DNA of 19,682 nt, taken from Deltaproteobacteria bacterium (GTDB lineage: Bacteria; Myxococcota_A; JAADFL01). The notes under the pieces are model-generated. The model did not search any database. It was not told the DNA's origin and worked only from the letters and a program-made list of their open reading frames with translations. The stretch is taken from NCBI GenBank assembly GCA_013152945.1, contig JAADFL010000127.1, forward strand, positions 1 to 19,682, read 5' to 3'. The position numbers and the translations under genes were made by a program. Shown one piece after another: positions 11,095 to 18,037 of the stretch (positions within the stretch are counted from its first letter, which is position 1; the number at the start of each line of letters is the position of its first letter).

Positions 11095-11556
11095 ATGTCA
11101 AACGTATCGAGGGTAGGGCGCTCGCAGATGGCAGTCACCACGACCAGGGACTCGGGTCGCAAGTCCCCGAGAACGGATTTCGGGGCCAAGCTCGGAAATA
11201 CTTTGCGAAAGGCCGGGAACATGGTTTCAATCGGGGGAGCAATAATGGCGCCCGTGATTCCCGCCGCCGGCCTGGTGTCCGCCGCGGTTTCTGGTATGAA
11301 GAACATGATGCCCACAGCACTGGAAACCGGAAAGGACAATGGCACTGATGATGTGCTGAACAGGGCGGACCAGGGAGCCGACAGCATGTTCGAGGCTACA
11401 AAGAAACTCCAGGAAATGAACCATGAAATGAACCTGGAATACCTGCAACTCCAGCAGCAGGTTCAACAGGAGGAACGCAACTTCAGCACCATGTCCCAGC
11501 TTATGGCTTCCAGGCACCAGACGGCAATGAGGGCCATACAGAACATGGGAAGTTAA
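11095..11556 (+). CDS. Putative T3SS-associated protein, hydrophobic centre and C-terminal coiled coil
   Basis: 153 residues, first gene of the T3SS operon. ATG 11095 is preceded by GGGAGG at 7 nt. Residues 1-35 are basic and Ser/Thr-rich with no Sec signal. A Gly/Ala-rich hydrophobic segment spans ~44-70 (VSIGGAIMAPVIPAAGLVSAAV). A Met/Gln-rich amphipathic helix follows (~95-150; MNHEMNLEYLQLQQQVQQEER). A soluble N-terminus, a membrane-active centre and a coiled coil are common in small T3SS substrates such as translocators or filament/tip components. The needle protein SctF is usually about 80-100 residues and lacks such a hydrophobic segment, so it is not called that. The role is inferred from position. 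Confidence 0.65.
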   Translation: MSNVSRVGRSQMAVTTTRDSGRKSPRTDFGAKLGNTLRKAGNMVSIGGAIMAPVIPAAGLVSAAVSGMKNMMPTALETGKDNGTDDVLNRADQGADSMFEATKKLQEMNHEMNLEYLQLQQQVQQEERNFSTMSQLMASRHQTAMRAIQNMGS

Positions 11557-12109: not shown

Positions 12110-12775
12110 ATGGAGATCGATGTTGATGCCCTGATAATGGAGAACCAGGGGCTTGTCCGCGAAGTCGTGAGGCAGGTGACAGTGGAATACCAATGCCATA
12201 ACATTCAGGAAGAGCTGATGGAGTACGGAATATTGGGTCTCTGCGAAGCGGCAAATTCTTTCGATCCCCAAAGGGGGCGGGCCTTTTCTTCATTTGCATG
12301 GCTGAGAATTCGCGGGGCCGTGATGGACGGAATACTGCAAACCAAGGGTATCAAGCGAAGCGTTGTTCGAAGGGCGCGCGCACACAGAGCTGCAACAGAG
12401 ATGGAGGAGAACGAGCCGGTACCCGGCGAGCATGCCATGTCGGTTTTTGAAGAATATGACGAGGTATCGAACCTGGTTGCGGACATGGGAACTTGTTACC
12501 TGGTCGGGGCACAGTTCGAATCCGGAAAGAGGCCGGATAATCCTGAAAAAGAGTACCTGACCAAGGAAACACTCGAGGTAATTGGAGATGCAATGGAGGT
12601 CCTGAAACAGGACGAATACAAGTTACTACGCATGCACTATGGGATGGATTTACCTTTGAGCCATGTGGCTGTTGAACTGGGTGTGACTAGACCATGGGCA
12701 TGGAAGATTCATAAGAGGGCTATTCAAAAACTGCGAAAACGGCTTTCAAGAGGCTCATCTGGAGGGAGAGCATGA
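12110..12775 (+). CDS. FliA/sigma-28-family RNA polymerase sigma factor
   Basis: 221 residues. Region 2 (~10-75) binds core polymerase and the -10 element; visible parts are YGILGLCEAANSFDPQRG, then FSSFAWLRIRGAVMDGIL. The RSVVRRARAH segment after it corresponds to the FliA RSVRRKAR stretch. The middle, region 3 (~85-150), is poorly conserved. Region 4 (~160-215) has the -35-binding helix-turn-helix: LPLSHVAVELGVTRPWAWKIHKRAIQKLRKRL. GGAGGG at 12093-12098 precedes ATG 12110. It lies within the T3SS operon between two small unknown genes and sctI, so it probably directs transcription of this or linked secretion genes. The flagellar structural genes that normally accompany FliA are absent from the window. 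Confidence 0.88.
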   Translation: MEIDVDALIMENQGLVREVVRQVTVEYQCHNIQEELMEYGILGLCEAANSFDPQRGRAFSSFAWLRIRGAVMDGILQTKGIKRSVVRRARAHRAATEMEENEPVPGEHAMSVFEEYDEVSNLVADMGTCYLVGAQFESGKRPDNPEKEYLTKETLEVIGDAMEVLKQDEYKLLRMHYGMDLPLSHVAVELGVTRPWAWKIHKRAIQKLRKRLSRGSSGGRA

Positions 12776-12816: not shown

Positions 12817-13176
12817 ATGAATATACAAGTTAACAGGTCTTTGATTAGTGCCGGAGCCGGGGCCAAAACAACACGCGGAACCAACCTTGGAAAACGGTTC
12901 AAGCAGGTATTGCACGGCACGAAACAAGGGACGGCGAAACAAGGCACGGTATCGAACAGCGACCGTTTGCTCGGCAGGCTGAATTCACTGGAATTGGGCC
13001 GATTGCAAGTCGACCGGGTGATGAAAGAGGCCTTGTCAGGCAGGAGATTCAATCCGGGCGAACTTTTGGCATTGCAGGCTGGAATATACCGGCTCAACAC
13101 GGAATTGGAACTGGCTGCCAAGGTAGTCGAAAGCAGCAATGCAGCGGTCAAACGGACCCTTTCCACCGAGGTGTAA
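12817..13176 (+). CDS. sctI: T3SS inner rod protein SctI (YscI/HrpB family)
   Basis: 119 residues. Forms the inner rod/adapter at the base of the needle filament. The conserved C-terminal helix is clear: GELLALQAGIYRLNTELELA, then KVVESSNAAVKRTL. The family consensus has an LLxLQ start and ends with VKxTLxTxV at the C-terminus, as here. Residues 1-50 are basic and low in complexity (HGTKQGTAKQGT). GGGAG about 11 nt upstream of ATG 12817 gives initiation. It ends 1 bp before sctJ, the usual sctI-sctJ neighbourhood. It is presumably exported through the apparatus without a cleaved signal. Confidence 0.88.
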   Translation: MNIQVNRSLISAGAGAKTTRGTNLGKRFKQVLHGTKQGTAKQGTVSNSDRLLGRLNSLELGRLQVDRVMKEALSGRRFNPGELLALQAGIYRLNTELELAAKVVESSNAAVKRTLSTEV

Positions 13177-13177
13177 G

Positions 13178-13939
13178 TTGAGGTCTTCACTATTTTGCCT
13201 GGTCCTGGGTTTGGCTGTTTTCTTTCAGGCATGCAGCACGGCGGTTTACCATGACCTCGATGAGAAACAGGCCAATAAGATAATCGTGGCCTTGGCCGGT
13301 GCAGGCATTCCCGCGCAAAAGGTAAAGGAAGGCCGGGGAAATGCCTCATGGAGCATACATGTGCAAGAGGACCAGGCTGAAAGGGCATGGCGATTACTCG
13401 AGTCATTGAACATGCCCAGGCAGGAGCCTGTGGGATTTAAAGGCATCTATTCAGATAAAAGCTTGATTCCAACACAACAGGAAGAGCGCGTAAGGTACGC
13501 CGCAGCCCTGTCCGGGGAGATGGAGAAAACACTGGAATCCCTGGACAGGATTGTGGACGCCCATGTCAACCTTGTGCTGGATAACGGATCTGCATCTCTT
13601 GACGAGGTTGGCTCCAAGGCTGTCAAGGCGTCTGTCTTGGTAAAGTACCTGGCGGACGACGGACAGGAACCGCCATTGAAACGGGCCGAGATTGCAAGGC
13701 TGGTATCCGGCGGCGTGGATGGCCTGGCGCCGGACAAGGTCGTAGTGGTAATGGCCGTGGTCAAGGGTCGAAAAGTCCTTGAAGAGTCAAAGGCGGCGGG
13801 CGCCAATGCGGGCATGGTCGGGATATCTCCAAGGTATCTGAAAATTGGAATGATAGTGCTTTCGCTGCTGGTGCTGGCAATGGCGGCCATGTTGGTGCAG
13901 TCCAGGCTGGCCCTGCACAGGGCGAGGCCGGCGGATTGA
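13178..13939 (+). CDS. sctJ: T3SS inner-membrane ring lipoprotein SctJ (YscJ/PrgK/HrcJ)
   Basis: 253 residues. TTG 13178 follows GAGGTG (13168-13173) and begins exactly at the lipoprotein signal peptide (LRSSLFCLVLGLAVFFQAC, lipobox Cys19). The alternative ATG 13139 would overlap sctI by 38 bp and hide the signal. Two ring-building modules follow. RBM1 starts YHDLDEKQANKIIVALAGAG, contains WRLLESLNMPRQ and runs to about residue 80. RBM2 covers EEVRYAA-type residues to ~205 (TLESLDRIVDAHVNLVLDN; KASVLVKYL; IARLVSGGVDGLAPDKVVVVM). A single C-terminal TM helix lies at ~219-243. The size and lipid anchor separate it from flagellar FliF (over 500 residues, no lipobox), so the system is an injectisome. 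Confidence 0.95.
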   Translation: MRSSLFCLVLGLAVFFQACSTAVYHDLDEKQANKIIVALAGAGIPAQKVKEGRGNASWSIHVQEDQAERAWRLLESLNMPRQEPVGFKGIYSDKSLIPTQQEERVRYAAALSGEMEKTLESLDRIVDAHVNLVLDNGSASLDEVGSKAVKASVLVKYLADDGQEPPLKRAEIARLVSGGVDGLAPDKVVVVMAVVKGRKVLEESKAAGANAGMVGISPRYLKIGMIVLSLLVLAMAAMLVQSRLALHRARPAD

Positions 13940-14337
13940 CCGTGGAGGGGATGTCCCGTTTATTATACGGCCTGCCGGCCGGCGAAGCGGCATTGTTACT
14001 GGTTGTATTCGGAGTACTGGGCGAAAGGGACAACAGTTTATTCGATAGATATCTTGGTCTGGAACAAAAGGCGAGATTGATCAGGCGGGCAGATGTCTTG
14101 TTGGAAATCGGGAGTGCAAAAAGGGCCAGGTTCGCCGTATCAGAGTTGAAGTTGCTGCTTGCAGCGGAATGCAGGGTATTGAAACCGGAACAGGCAGGCC
14201 CGAACCAGGAGATGGACGGGGAGACGGACGAGGAATTGTTTTCAAGCTTGGCTTTATCGGGAAATGCACTGCCGTCCGGTTTGGCGGCTGACCTGGCAAG
14301 GCTGAATAATTGGATCCTGGTAAAACAACATGGCTGA
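13936..14337 (+). CDS. Protein in the SctK position of the T3SS operon
   Basis: 133 residues. The sequence is mostly helical (LPAGEAALLLVVFGVLGERD; LIRRADVLLEIGSAKRARFA) with no true membrane helix or signal. TTG 13936 overlaps the sctJ stop (TTGA) and has GAGG 8 nt upstream; ATG 13951 is a possible later start, but its purine tract is too close. The stop overlaps sctL by 8 bp. In many T3SS operons the gene between sctJ and sctL is sctK, a sorting-platform pod component. The assignment rests on position, since SctK diverges strongly and is usually longer (about 200 residues). Confidence 0.6.
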   Translation: MTVEGMSRLLYGLPAGEAALLLVVFGVLGERDNSLFDRYLGLEQKARLIRRADVLLEIGSAKRARFAVSELKLLLAAECRVLKPEQAGPNQEMDGETDEELFSSLALSGNALPSGLAADLARLNNWILVKQHG

Positions 14338-14971
14338 GATAAAGAAGGGAAACAAGCTCGATTACCTGCCGCCGGCCATCGGGCCCAGGGGCGCCCGGAG
14401 GATTGATGCCGCTTGGATCGAGTCAAAGTTCAAGGCCGAGGAGATGTTGTCCGAGGCCAGGCTTGCGGCAGAGGATATTGTCAAAAATGCTCAATCGCTT
14501 TTGGAATCAGCGAAAAGGGAAGGGGAGAGAATGGGAAGAGCCGAGGCTGCGGACCAAGCGGCGCAATTGATTGCAAAGGCCAAGGTCGAGGCCTCGAGGA
14601 TCATATCCGGGGCGGAAACGCAGTTGCTCAAGCTATCCGTCAAGATTGCCGAGCAGATTGTCGGCAAGGAATTGGAATTATCAGGGGATGCGGTTACCCA
14701 TCTCGTATCCCAAGTATTGAACCAGGCCAAGACCGGTACAGGCCTTTGCCTGAGGCTCAATCCCCTTGACGCTGATGCCCTGAATAAACGTGTTCAAAGG
14801 CTTCGCATGTTGGTTCCGGATGCGCCGAAAATCGAAATTGCAGAAGATCCTTCCATGTCAAGAGGCGGTTGCGTGGTGAGCGGCGCCGACCTGGAGATTG
14901 ACGCCAGGCTGGAGACACGGTTGGAGGAGATCGAGAAGATATTGCTTGGAGGCGGCCGGGTAGACGGGTAA
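14330..14971 (+). CDS. sctL: T3SS stator protein SctL (YscL/HrpE, FliH family)
   Basis: 213 residues. Links the hexameric ATPase to the SctQ pods of the sorting platform. Residues ~28-105 form a long charged helix rich in Ala, Glu and Lys (FKAEEMLSEARLAAEDIVKN; AKVEASRIISGAETQLLKLS), like the peripheral-stalk b/FliH region. The C-terminal globular part (~106-205) includes VKIAEQIVGKELELS, then LCLRLNPLDADALNKRV and the family-typical DPSMSRGGCVV. Start ATG 14330 overlaps the previous gene by 8 bp, consistent with coupled translation. The ATPase gene follows 27 bp later. Confidence 0.9.
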   Translation: MAEIKKGNKLDYLPPAIGPRGARRIDAAWIESKFKAEEMLSEARLAAEDIVKNAQSLLESAKREGERMGRAEAADQAAQLIAKAKVEASRIISGAETQLLKLSVKIAEQIVGKELELSGDAVTHLVSQVLNQAKTGTGLCLRLNPLDADALNKRVQRLRMLVPDAPKIEIAEDPSMSRGGCVVSGADLEIDARLETRLEEIEKILLGGGRVDG

Positions 14972-14998
14972 TGCCTGTTGGGTAAGGAGAGATCTGCA

Positions 14999-16318
14999 TT
15001 GAACCTGGATGCGGACAAATACATATCCAAGTTGCGGTCCGGGCGAATCGAGCACGTTAAGGGCCGCCTTGCCTCTGTTGTGGGCCTGACCCTCGAGGCA
15101 GTGCTTCCAGGAACGTTTATCGGGGAACAGGTGGAAATTTTGAGCCGTACTCGTCCGGCGTTGCGCGCCGAAGTAGTCGGCTTCAAACGAGATGTAGCCA
15201 TACTGATGCCGCTCGGGGATCCTTCGGGCCTGGGACCGGGCTCGGAAGTAGTGCCCACAGGGGAGGAGCCCTCTGTTTCATGCGGACCGGCCTTGCAGGG
15301 CCGTGTGCTGGACGGCCTTGGAAGGGCACTGGACGGAAGAGGCCTTCCAGGGGGACTTGTCCGGGTTCCCCTGTACAGGAATGCGCCGCCGGCTCTCCGG
15401 AGGATCCCGGTCGACCGGTCTCTTACACTTGGGGTAAGAGTCCTGGACGGGTTGCTGACGGCCGGGGAAGGGCAAAGACTGGGATTGTTTGCTGCAGCCG
15501 GCGTTGGGAAGTCAACCTTGCTCGCCCAGGTGGCCAAGAATACCTCGGCCGATGTAATTGTGCTCGCCCTGGTCGGTGAGAGGGGCAGGGAAGTCAGGGA
15601 GTTCATCGACCATGCCCTTGGCGTGGAAGGGCTCGGACGCTCGGTGGTGGTATGCGCCACCTCGGATGAGCCGGCCCTGGTCAGGAAGCGGGCTGCGTAC
15701 ACGGCAACTGCGATAGCAGAGTATTTCAGGGACCAAGGGAAAAGGGTGTTGCTGCTGCTTGATTCCTTGACCAGGGTGGCAAGGGCACAGAGAGAGATCG
15801 GCCTCGCCGCAGGAGAGCCGCCTGTACGGCGTGGTTTCCCTCCATCTTCGTTTGCCATGTTGCCGGGTCTCCTTGAACGGGCCGGCAACTCGGACAAGGG
15901 GACCATGACCGCCATATACACGGTTCTCGTGGAAGGTGACGACCAGGATGAACCCGTATCCGACGAGGTTCGCGGAATACTGGACGGCCACATCATATTG
16001 TCCAGAAATTTGGCCTCCAGGGGCAGGTGGCCTGCAGTAGATGTGCTTGGGAGTCTTTCCAGGGTTTTCGACAAGGTGGCGGAACCGGGCCAGGTGGAAG
16101 GTGCAGCAAAGTTGCGTGCTTTGCTTTCGAGTTATGAACAGAAACGTGAACTGATCCTGCTCGGGGCGTACAAGCACGGAAGCGATCCCATGGTTGACAT
16201 GGCAATCGAACTCATGCCGCGGATAGAGAGTTACCTGGTGCAGGGTAAAACAGAGCGATCCGACATGAAGACCGCGGTTTCGGGCCTGTTGGAATTGACG
16301 GATTGGGATTGGTCGTGA
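14999..16318 (+). CDS. sctN: T3SS ATPase SctN (YscN/InvC/HrcN)
   Basis: 439-residue ATPase that detaches chaperones and unfolds substrates at the export gate. TTG 14999 is chosen because AAGGAGA (14984-14990) lies 8 nt upstream; TTG 14978 would add 7 residues but has no such site. The phosphate-binding loop is FAAAGVGKSTLL with Lys171. The canonical family loop is FAGSGVGKST, so the first Walker A glycine is Ala here. The catalytic glutamate motif GERGREV (Glu194), the Walker B stretch RVLLLLDSLTR (Asp255), AQREIGLAAGEPPVRRGFPP and a C-terminal regulatory domain are all present. The lack of flagellar-type neighbours and the SctI/SctJ context place it with the injectisome branch rather than FliI. 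Confidence 0.95.
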   Translation: MNLDADKYISKLRSGRIEHVKGRLASVVGLTLEAVLPGTFIGEQVEILSRTRPALRAEVVGFKRDVAILMPLGDPSGLGPGSEVVPTGEEPSVSCGPALQGRVLDGLGRALDGRGLPGGLVRVPLYRNAPPALRRIPVDRSLTLGVRVLDGLLTAGEGQRLGLFAAAGVGKSTLLAQVAKNTSADVIVLALVGERGREVREFIDHALGVEGLGRSVVVCATSDEPALVRKRAAYTATAIAEYFRDQGKRVLLLLDSLTRVARAQREIGLAAGEPPVRRGFPPSSFAMLPGLLERAGNSDKGTMTAIYTVLVEGDDQDEPVSDEVRGILDGHIILSRNLASRGRWPAVDVLGSLSRVFDKVAEPGQVEGAAKLRALLSSYEQKRELILLGAYKHGSDPMVDMAIELMPRIESYLVQGKTERSDMKTAVSGLLELTDWDWS

Positions 16319-16794
16319 ATAAACGTAATTTTTACTATCCACTGGACTTGTTACTCGAGGTGAAGCAGAAGGAAAAGCGGGAAACAGAACTTGCCCTTGT
16401 TGCTGCGAGGGACAACCTGCAAACAGCCCGGAGAAAGGCGCGGGAAACGGATCGCAGGGTAAGGGAAATGGAAGAGCGCATAGAAAGGGAAAAGAAAAAG
16501 GTCTTTGGCCTGGTAATGGCCGGCGAGGCCGAAGCCCTGGAGCGCTCGGTGATTGGCTTGACAGGCGACCTGGAAGACTTATTGGAGAGGAAGAGACTTG
16601 CCGGAGAAGAATTGCAGGCAGTCTCGGATGATGTTGCGGAGGCGGAGAGCAAACTGGGGCAGGCCGTCAAAGAGCTGAAGGCTGTCGAGGCTCATCACGA
16701 AAGGTGGATCCTCGAAACCTCGAAGAATGAATCGAGAAAGCAAGAGGCTGAAATCGAAGATGCCTGGATGGGGAGGTCCCGGGATGCCGACTGA
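16315..16794 (+). CDS. sctO: T3SS central stalk protein SctO (YscO/InvI, FliJ-like)
   Basis: 159 residues, almost entirely an antiparallel coiled coil of charged heptads (LLEVKQKEKRETELALVAAR; RKARETDRRVREMEERIERE; LAGEELQAVSDDVAEAESKL). This is the FliJ/YscO fold that inserts into the ATPase hexamer like a gamma subunit. GTG 16315 overlaps the sctN TGA (GTGA), giving translational coupling; TTG 16303 is an in-frame alternative adding four residues. The end overlaps the sctQ start by 11 bp. The sequence is low in complexity, so the family call depends on the sctN-sctO-sctQ order as much as on residues. Confidence 0.85.
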   Translation: MNKRNFYYPLDLLLEVKQKEKRETELALVAARDNLQTARRKARETDRRVREMEERIEREKKKVFGLVMAGEAEALERSVIGLTGDLEDLLERKRLAGEELQAVSDDVAEAESKLGQAVKELKAVEAHHERWILETSKNESRKQEAEIEDAWMGRSRDAD

Positions 16795-18037
16795 AAGGGT
16801 TTCCCAGCCCATGAAAGATTCGGTGAAGCGTGAAGTCAATCGGATCTCCTTGCCTGTGGCGGCAAGCCTGACCAGGCACGAAATGAATATTCAGAACGAA
16901 TGGGTCTCTTTTGTCGGCGAACCCGTGGGAGTCGCCGCTGCAATTCGGGAAACGATCTCTAACATGCTTTCAACGGATGTGGAGCTTTTGTTCGGTTCCC
17001 CGGTTTTACATGGCCCTGCTCTTGGCGGTGGTGAAGAGTCGGTGGTTTGTTTCCCTGTGGGAATGGGTAATGAGAACAGGTTGATCCACTTGTCTGTTGA
17101 CACGCCGTTTGCAACTTTTATCGTCGACTCCTTGCTTGGAGGCAAGGGCGGTCATTACGAGGTGCAGAGACCTTTGACCGGAGTCGAGAGAGGAGCCTTG
17201 TCGGCAGTGCTCCTGAATGTGATGAGGAAGCTGGAAGAACTCGGGCTCCCTTGTACAAGGCTGCTTTCGCTTGGAGGGCCTGAACCGGGAGATTTGGACA
17301 AGGCCGGCCTCATGGTTCCTATTGTTGTGAAAACCGGCAATCGCAAGGGCCATGTAAGGCTGTATCTGCCGGATGAATCACCGGGAACTGAAGGCATTCA
17401 AGGTAGAAGTATCCAAAAAGGAATAAATACATCAACAGCTAATGGACTGGCCCCGGCCGTAGAACTGGAATTGGCGGCGCAGATCGGATGGGGTACATTA
17501 CCGCTTTCACATCTCGTTGAAATGGGACCCGGTGACTTGGTATTGTTCGACGAGTTGACAATGGCAGGAGATGGGAAAGGTTCGGCAAGGCTCGTTGCCG
17601 GGCATGGTGAAGGCAAGAAGGCCCTGGTTTGCGCGGTATTGGAACCTAAAGCCCGGGATTATCCGGATGGTAAAAATCCGCGTTTGCAGGTGGTGGAACT
17701 CTTGGAAAAGGAGGGATTGACCGTGGAAGAGCATTCACACGAGGAACTTGTCGAAAATAAAAAGACGGCAGAGGCGACCAGGATCGATGATTTGAACAGC
17801 CCGGGTGCAAGGCTCCTGGATGATTTGCCTGTGAAGATGACATTGGAGTTGGGGAGAATCGTTTTGACTGCAAGGGAGATCATGGCGCTTCGGCCCGGAA
17901 ACATCCTGGAACTGGACAAGAACCCGGAGGATTTACTTGAATTGACCGTCAATGGAAGGACTATTGCCTTGTGTGAACTCGTTGAAGTGGACGGCAGGTT
18001 TGGGGCCAGGGTCAACAGGCTGGTGGCAGGCGATTGA
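16784..18037 (+). CDS. sctQ: T3SS sorting-platform (C-ring) protein SctQ (YscQ/SpaO/HrcQ)
   Basis: 417 residues, longer than YscQ (about 307). ATG 16784 follows GGGAGG (16771-16776) by 7 nt; an upstream in-frame ATG at 16727 is unlikely. Residues 1-215 are the divergent FliM-like/N-terminal part, including VERGALSAVLLNVMRKLEELG. SpoA1 lies at ~222-275 (VELELAAQIGWGTLPLSHLV; GPGDLVLFDE). A charged linker of ~70 residues follows. SpoA2 is at ~346-415 (DDLPVKMTLELGRIVLTARE; RPGNILELDK; GARVNRLVAG). The linker contains an internal translation start (see the separate entry). No sctP-like ruler gene lies between sctO and sctQ. SctQ forms the cytosolic pods that bind chaperone-substrate complexes. 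Confidence 0.92.
   Translation: MPTERVSQPMKDSVKREVNRISLPVAASLTRHEMNIQNEWVSFVGEPVGVAAAIRETISNMLSTDVELLFGSPVLHGPALGGGEESVVCFPVGMGNENRLIHLSVDTPFATFIVDSLLGGKGGHYEVQRPLTGVERGALSAVLLNVMRKLEELGLPCTRLLSLGGPEPGDLDKAGLMVPIVVKTGNRKGHVRLYLPDESPGTEGIQGRSIQKGINTSTANGLAPAVELELAAQIGWGTLPLSHLVEMGPGDLVLFDELTMAGDGKGSARLVAGHGEGKKALVCAVLEPKARDYPDGKNPRLQVVELLEKEGLTVEEHSHEELVENKKTAEATRIDDLNSPGARLLDDLPVKMTLELGRIVLTAREIMALRPGNILELDKNPEDLLELTVNGRTIALCELVEVDGRFGARVNRLVAGD
17709..18037 (+). CDS. Predicted internal product SctQ-C from an in-frame start within sctQ
   Basis: AGGAGG (17709-17714, inside AAAAGGAGGG) is followed after 8 nt by an in-frame GTG at 17723. Translation there yields 104 residues: about 32 linker residues and then the complete SpoA2 domain. 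A TTG at 17717 is too close to the Shine-Dalgarno. In Yersinia YscQ and Salmonella SpaO, an internal start makes a short SpoA2-containing protein that assembles with the full-length protein. The placement just upstream of SpoA2 here is the same. The coding region of the product is 17723-18037. It is predicted from sequence only. Confidence 0.6.

Follow-up and report, generated by a model that had tools for sequence, protein, structure and literature searches.

The sctQ gene of the DNA stretch analyzed here (19,682 nt, hereafter the window) contains a strong Shine-Dalgarno sequence (SD) followed by an in-frame GTG, at 17723, between the regions coding for its two SpoA domains. Judging from the sequence, this GTG is very likely used for internal initiation, so that sctQ would yield both a full SctQ and a separate SctQ-C. 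The features considered are the following:

13139..13939, + strand: sctJ, inner ring lipoprotein (TIGR02544, PF01514)
14330..14971, + strand: sctL, stator (PF02108, PF06635)
14978..16318, + strand: sctN, T3SS ATPase (TIGR02546/TIGR01026; tree)
16303..16794, + strand: sctO-like gene directly upstream of sctQ (weak YscO-like match below the Pfam cut-off; position)
16727..18037, + strand: sctQ ORF, 436 aa from 16727 (TIGR02551, 94 bits; PF01052, 85.6 bits)
17462..17638, + strand: SpoA1 region, residues 246-304 (AF2 strands and pLDDT; SpoA profile match)
17639..17812, + strand: SpoA1-SpoA2 linker (AF2 model; residues 329-339 with pLDDT <50)
17708..17714, + strand: internal SD AAGGAGG (sequence match; duplex energy -12.1 kcal/mol)
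17723..17725, + strand: predicted internal start codon GTG (sequence; SD energy)
17723..18037, + strand: predicted SctQ-C coding region, 104 aa, 11.56 kDa (computed product)
17813..18025, + strand: SpoA2 (FliMN_C) domain (Pfam match, residues 363-433)

The initial annotation had noted AGGAGG at 17709-17714, 8 nt before an in-frame GTG, and this was confirmed in the sequence. The AGGAGG core belongs to a 7-nt SD match, AAGGAGG (17708-17714), and the stretch 17708-17725 reads AAGGAGG-GATTGACC-GTG. The GTG (17723-17725) lies 8 nt 3' of the SD, in frame with the sctQ ORF (16727-18037), of which it is codon 333 of 436; it is the sole linker ATG or GTG of this gene with an SD. At this spacing, the duplex energy of the internal SD against the 16S tail is -12.1 kcal/mol. 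The predicted SctQ-C begins with MEEHSHEELVEN and has 104 aa, a pI of 4.7 and SpoA2 as its only domain; its computed mass, 11,558 Da, agrees with the size of about 11.5 kDa first proposed. The distance from the GTG to SpoA2, given at first as about 32 codons, had to be corrected slightly: it is 30 codons to the Pfam FliMN_C match (residues 363-433), which places the start about 30-34 residues before SpoA2. Two other codons were considered as internal starts and rejected: TTG 17717, which is 2 nt past the SD (energy -4.7), and ATG 17837, which is at the edge of SpoA2 and without SD.

The assignment of the gene to SctQ was examined at the domain level. The TIGR02551 score is 94.2, just below the curated cut-off of 100.8, with residues 238-432 aligned. 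SpoA1 is under Pfam detection; an in-house SpoA profile matches it with 21 bits (ORF residues 261-312, counted from the upstream stop). In the AF2 model, whose mean pLDDT is only 67.5, the SpoA regions correspond to residues 246-304 and 368-432. That the full-length protein carries both SpoA domains therefore holds, by Pfam for SpoA2 and by the SpoA profile, the TIGR02551 alignment and the AF2 model for SpoA1. The site does fall in the linker, between SpoA1 and SpoA2: the start codon of SctQ-C is inside residues 329-339, for which the AF2 model has a pLDDT below 50. The best structural match of the whole model is 4yxb, a FliM(SPOA)::FliN fusion, and the best solved-chain sequence match for the SctQ alignment is 3uep, YscQ-C. 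The gene thus combines a FliM-like N-terminal part, SpoA1 and SpoA2 in one protein within a T3SS gene cluster, as in the SctQ family, and has an in-frame start codon with an SD between SpoA1 and SpoA2, as in genes of the SctQ-C type.

The start of full-length SctQ is probably ATG 16784 rather than 16727, giving 417 aa. ATG 16784, which overlaps the 3' end of sctO, is preceded by GGGGAGGT (SD energy -12.2), whereas the mechanical start at 16727 has an energy of 0.1 and no SD. With the start at ATG 16784, the main and internal starts of sctQ have equally strong SDs. Ribosomes starting near 16784 (or 16727) would then produce full-length SctQ, with its FliM-like domain, SpoA1 and SpoA2, and ribosomes guided by AAGGAGG to GTG 17723 would produce SctQ-C, a FliN-like SpoA2 protein of 104 residues. 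By analogy with YscQ, SpaO, Spa33 and HrcQ, SctQ-C dimers may bind SctQ, two per SctQ, and stabilise it, and SctQ-C may help to build the sorting-platform pods.

The internal site was compared with a background sample of the same genome (315 kb, 198 ORFs, about 62,000 internal codons). An in-frame start with an anti-SD energy of -11.9 kcal/mol or lower occurs in 2 of the 784 internal 70-codon windows of this sample. The same level is reached by the first-start codons of 4.5% of the sampled ORFs, which were called mechanically, so that a first start can only stand in for a real one. In-frame internal ATG, GTG or TTG codons with an SD of at least 7 nt amount to 0.35 per 1000 codons, i.e. about 2% per 50-codon linker, and the exact pattern AGGAGG-N8-GTG is found once in the window for 0.22 expected. 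The rarity of windows with a site so strong argues against a coincidence in which the poorly ordered linker, rich in Lys and Glu (L-E-K-E-G), encodes AGGAGG before a Val codon by accident, no initiation takes place and only full-length SctQ is made. We consider such a coincidence unlikely. It is nevertheless favoured by a synonymous-codon shuffle of sctQ (p=0.083), by the frame control on GTG codons given below, and by a 240-nt local RNA fold in which the SD core and GTG 17723 are mostly paired. The weak shuffle result is due to the ease with which Lys-Glu-Gly encodes AGGAGG, Glu-Glu and Lys-Glu-Gly fixing most of the SD; in a free linker, selection may act on the residues themselves so as to produce the SD, which makes the synonymous-shuffle null conservative. 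As to the fold, a ribosome translating sctQ would open the paired region. From the sctQ sequence of the window alone, the site appears unusual, yet not decisive. Besides the shuffle, positional, frame and FliM controls were applied.

The distribution of start signals was analyzed in SctQ genes of the phylum. Phylum genes were selected as ORFs containing two SpoA domains, which gave 73 genes other than that of the window, in 18 families; 27 SctQ genes from other phyla were added. Synteny was dropped as a filter, because most phylum genes lack neighbours resembling the sctN or sctL of the window. In many phylum genomes (L090, L091, L102, L126 and others) the two-SpoA sctQ is isolated, no window-like sctN or sctL being present less than about 8 kb away. 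The initial annotation had expected the SD and the start codon to stay conserved while the linker varies. In this broader form the expectation was borne out: in-frame starts with an SD cluster in the SpoA1-SpoA2 linker. A start with an SD energy of -8 or lower is present in the 35 codons before SpoA2 in 46% of the 74 phylum genes (window sctQ included); the proportion is 10-15% in upstream 40-codon windows of phylum sctQ, and 11%, with no peak, at the equivalent place of FliM-like controls. Inside the SpoA2 domain SD-bearing starts are found in 20-28% of the phylum genes, above the body level, so composition explains part of the linker signal. The site of the window falls where the 73 related genes concentrate theirs, which is the second argument against coincidence. 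The phylum peak is at 16-20 residues before SpoA2, and the GTG of the window is farther, at 30-34.

The phylum sequences are related, so that the p-values obtained on them, except the per-family one, overstate independence: in-frame linker ATGs have an SD of -8 or lower in 27 cases out of 86, compared with 6 out of 135 in the gene body (OR 9.8, p=6e-8) and 2 out of 62 for out-of-frame linker ATGs (p=6e-6), and when one gene was drawn per family the median p of the linker ATG test was 9e-4. With ATG and GTG taken together the counts are 40/171 in the linker vs 33/655 in the body (p=1e-11). For the 86 linker ATGs, the mean anti-SD energy drops to -6.1 at ribosome-binding distance, the values to both sides of it being about -2 to -3. 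Linker sites of -11.5 or lower are present in 9 of the 74 genes, that of the window counted, vs 4 of 287 body windows, an 8.7-fold difference. In 53 phylum genes the SD of the best linker start reaches -6 or lower; 31 of these have Asp or Glu at residue 3 of the product, vs 23 of 243 for Met elsewhere. The result is negative for GTG considered separately: strong SDs precede 13 of 85 in-frame linker GTGs vs 10 of 52 out-of-frame ones, and GTG density in phylum linkers is no higher than in the gene body. An ATG or GTG is present in the linker of 73 of the 74 phylum genes, and 21 of the 74 are without a clear SD at the -6 threshold.

These data also bear on a role of the purine-rich stretch in slowing elongating ribosomes between SpoA1 and SpoA2, which would aid co-translational folding without any initiation. 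The position of the stretch, in a flexible linker that separates two domains, agrees with this, but a start codon is superfluous for pausing, and in phylum linkers the frequency of a following ATG or GTG is 22% for strong SDs vs 5.5% without SD. Furthermore, ATGs are three times as dense in the linker as in the body (phylum, p=4e-13; other phyla, p=4e-5). Ribosome slowing is on this evidence very improbable. In the SctQ of other phyla linker ATGs are enriched, but few strong SDs are present (3 of 27 SctQ); a clear SD-based signal is thus confined to the phylum.

Within genera represented by at least two sequences, a linker ATG or GTG with SD complementarity is present in every member of six genera out of nine. 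In g61 the start is kept in four genomes, as ATG or GTG and with energies down to -12.7, for a linker identity of 27-42%; in g135 a linker ATG is kept in all members with 35% linker identity; and in g92, where linkers are 40% identical, one member has ATG and the other GTG. A linker start with SD complementarity is likewise present in all members of g13, g130 and g167. Two genera (g60 and g162) have a weak linker start in part of their members, and g157 has no linker start with SD complementarity. Homologues thus keep the start signal in spite of a variable linker, at the phylum level and within other genera; in the phylum this signal is common, not universal, or sometimes independent of a visible SD. 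For the window itself, a profile scan across genome contigs found no close SctQ relatives, all relatives being of the same phylum only. The best SctN identity to the window is 55% among the matches listed in the contig scan, and 59-60% in the phylum search.

We also searched the genome for other sources of a SpoA2 protein. Only three SpoA ORFs are present: SctQ and two ORFs of 330 and 170 aa, FliM- and FliN-like, on a contig (C98) that carries FliI-, FlhA-, FlhB- and FliP-like genes, a gene set of flagellar type. Besides this flagellar-type FliN (170 aa), no separate SpoA2-only gene was found in the genome, which is 94% complete. The presence of the two flagellar-type ORFs beside a FliI-like ATPase would fit a single FliN serving both machines, with no SpoA2 partner coming from sctQ and the internal site being a relic. 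The internal site, however, is strong and not decayed, and in several phylum genomes with a linker site (for example G094, G144 and G354) the search at E <= 1e-10 gave a single SpoA match, no second SpoA protein that could be lent being found there. We regard a shared FliN as the least probable of the explanations considered. The prediction of a separate SctQ-C made from the internal SD and GTG is thus supported by the strength of the site and by its phylum-wide recurrence.

The genes of the T3SS cluster lie upstream of sctQ and on the same strand, including weaker matches to sctI and sctO. The run is opened by an ORF of 153 aa (11095-11556) with a very strong SD (energy -12.4) and no Pfam or NCBIfam match, possibly a secreted or needle-type component. 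A FliA/WhiG-like sigma factor at 12110-12775, just upstream of sctI-sctJ, suggests a regulator dedicated to the T3SS cluster. T3SS export genes are dispersed over the genome, with a second FlhA/SctV-like gene located on contig C25 and a second FliP/SctR-like gene located on C168. A second FlhB/SctU was not found in this genome (94% complete, 218 contigs), nor was any YscC-family secretin match over the cut-off. In a maximum-likelihood tree of 91 SctN/FliI proteins, the SctN of the window is in a 100/100 clade of 12 SctN rows, among them two named Myxococcota rows and others from the phylum of the window, which is therefore most likely Myxococcota. It thus groups with Myxococcota systems, apart from the secretin-bearing ones. 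The layout is accordingly present in a divergent system, as had been claimed, distant from the known two-product systems. The T3SS of the window most likely belongs to the early-branching secretin-less Myxo group of Abby and Rocha (PMC3459982), and the needleless T3SS* of Myxococcus xanthus (PMC12075869) is most likely a relative of it. Elsewhere in the tree, the chlamydial SctN clade contains two genomes, a Waddliaceae MAG (L196:11857-13225) and a Verrucomicrobia-labelled MAG (L165:7492-8641), in which SpoA1 and SpoA2 are encoded by two different ORFs that overlap or abut. In a Binatota genome (L174:8675-9004), a 110-residue SpoA2-only ORF stands just before an sctR-like ORF. These ORFs look like stand-alone SpoA2 proteins without an internal start.

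A two-product sctQ is already known as a kind, and the sctQ of the window would extend it to a distant lineage. No published report of an internal sctQ start in this lineage was found in a literature search that covered few subscription papers. As far as that search reaches, the phylum-wide enrichment of linker starts is undescribed. The internal start looks general in this distant branch, probably that of the Myxococcota SctQ. A wider proposal, which we make tentatively and rate as somewhat short of probable, is that the internal sctQ start is a general and ancient property of NF-T3SS, early-branching secretin-less Myxococcota included, and represents the ancestral fliN start preserved after fusion to fliM. 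If the phylum-wide start signal is true, the two-product design probably predates the secretin-bearing injectisomes and is part of the basic sorting platform. The T3SS* of Myxococcus xanthus would then be predicted to use SctQ-C too, and a real protein would be missed by gene annotation in many genomes.

A second sctQ product is known in five pseudomonadotal systems: YscQ, SpaO, SsaQ, Spa33 and HrcQ. The statement that YscQ and SpaO give SpoA2-only proteins from internal starts is borne out by published work (PMC4295842, PMC13059759). SpaO-short starts at GTG203, has 101 residues, associates 2:1 with SpaO and is required for full activity (PMC13059759). In Shigella, Spa33-C starts at GTG192 (PMC6925163), and Spa33-FL is described as equivalent to a FliM-FliN fusion (PMC4832279). 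SpaO (Salmonella SPI-1) and Spa33 resemble the sctQ of the window in having an internal GTG between SpoA1 and SpoA2, and their C-terminal products (101 residues for SpaO, 11.6 kDa for Spa33) are similar to the predicted SctQ-C of 104 aa. In the gene of the window the SD is much stronger and the linker longer (about 60-70 residues), the T3SS lineage is a distant one, and SctQ-C is a prediction from sequence. YscQ-C, without which assembly in Yersinia is blocked, starts at Met218 (PMC4295842); a SpoA2-only product is common to both systems, but the start is ATG in YscQ and GTG in the window, and the Ysc-group genes compared have a linker ATG with little SD. HrcQ-C of Xanthomonas is made from ATG211; this internal start, with an SD upstream, is conserved in the genus and required for pathogenicity when single-copy (PMC8553256). 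HrcQ shares with the window an internal start and an upstream SD; it differs by its ATG, its weaker SD (GAGG, 11 nt), its occurrence in a plant pathogen and its position on another branch. For the T3SS* of Myxococcus xanthus, sorting-platform components are reported (PMC12075869), as is a necessity for prey lysis; an internal sctQ start is not mentioned in the passages searched of that paper or of PMC3459982. The secretin-less Myxo-group NF-T3SS have the SctN clade in common with the window, in whose genome (94% complete) no YscC-family secretin match exceeded the cut-off. Finally, in terms of the flagellar C-ring, SctQ corresponds to FliM fused to FliN and SctQ-C to free FliN, whereas in flagella FliM and FliN are two separate genes, as they also are on contig C98 of the window genome.
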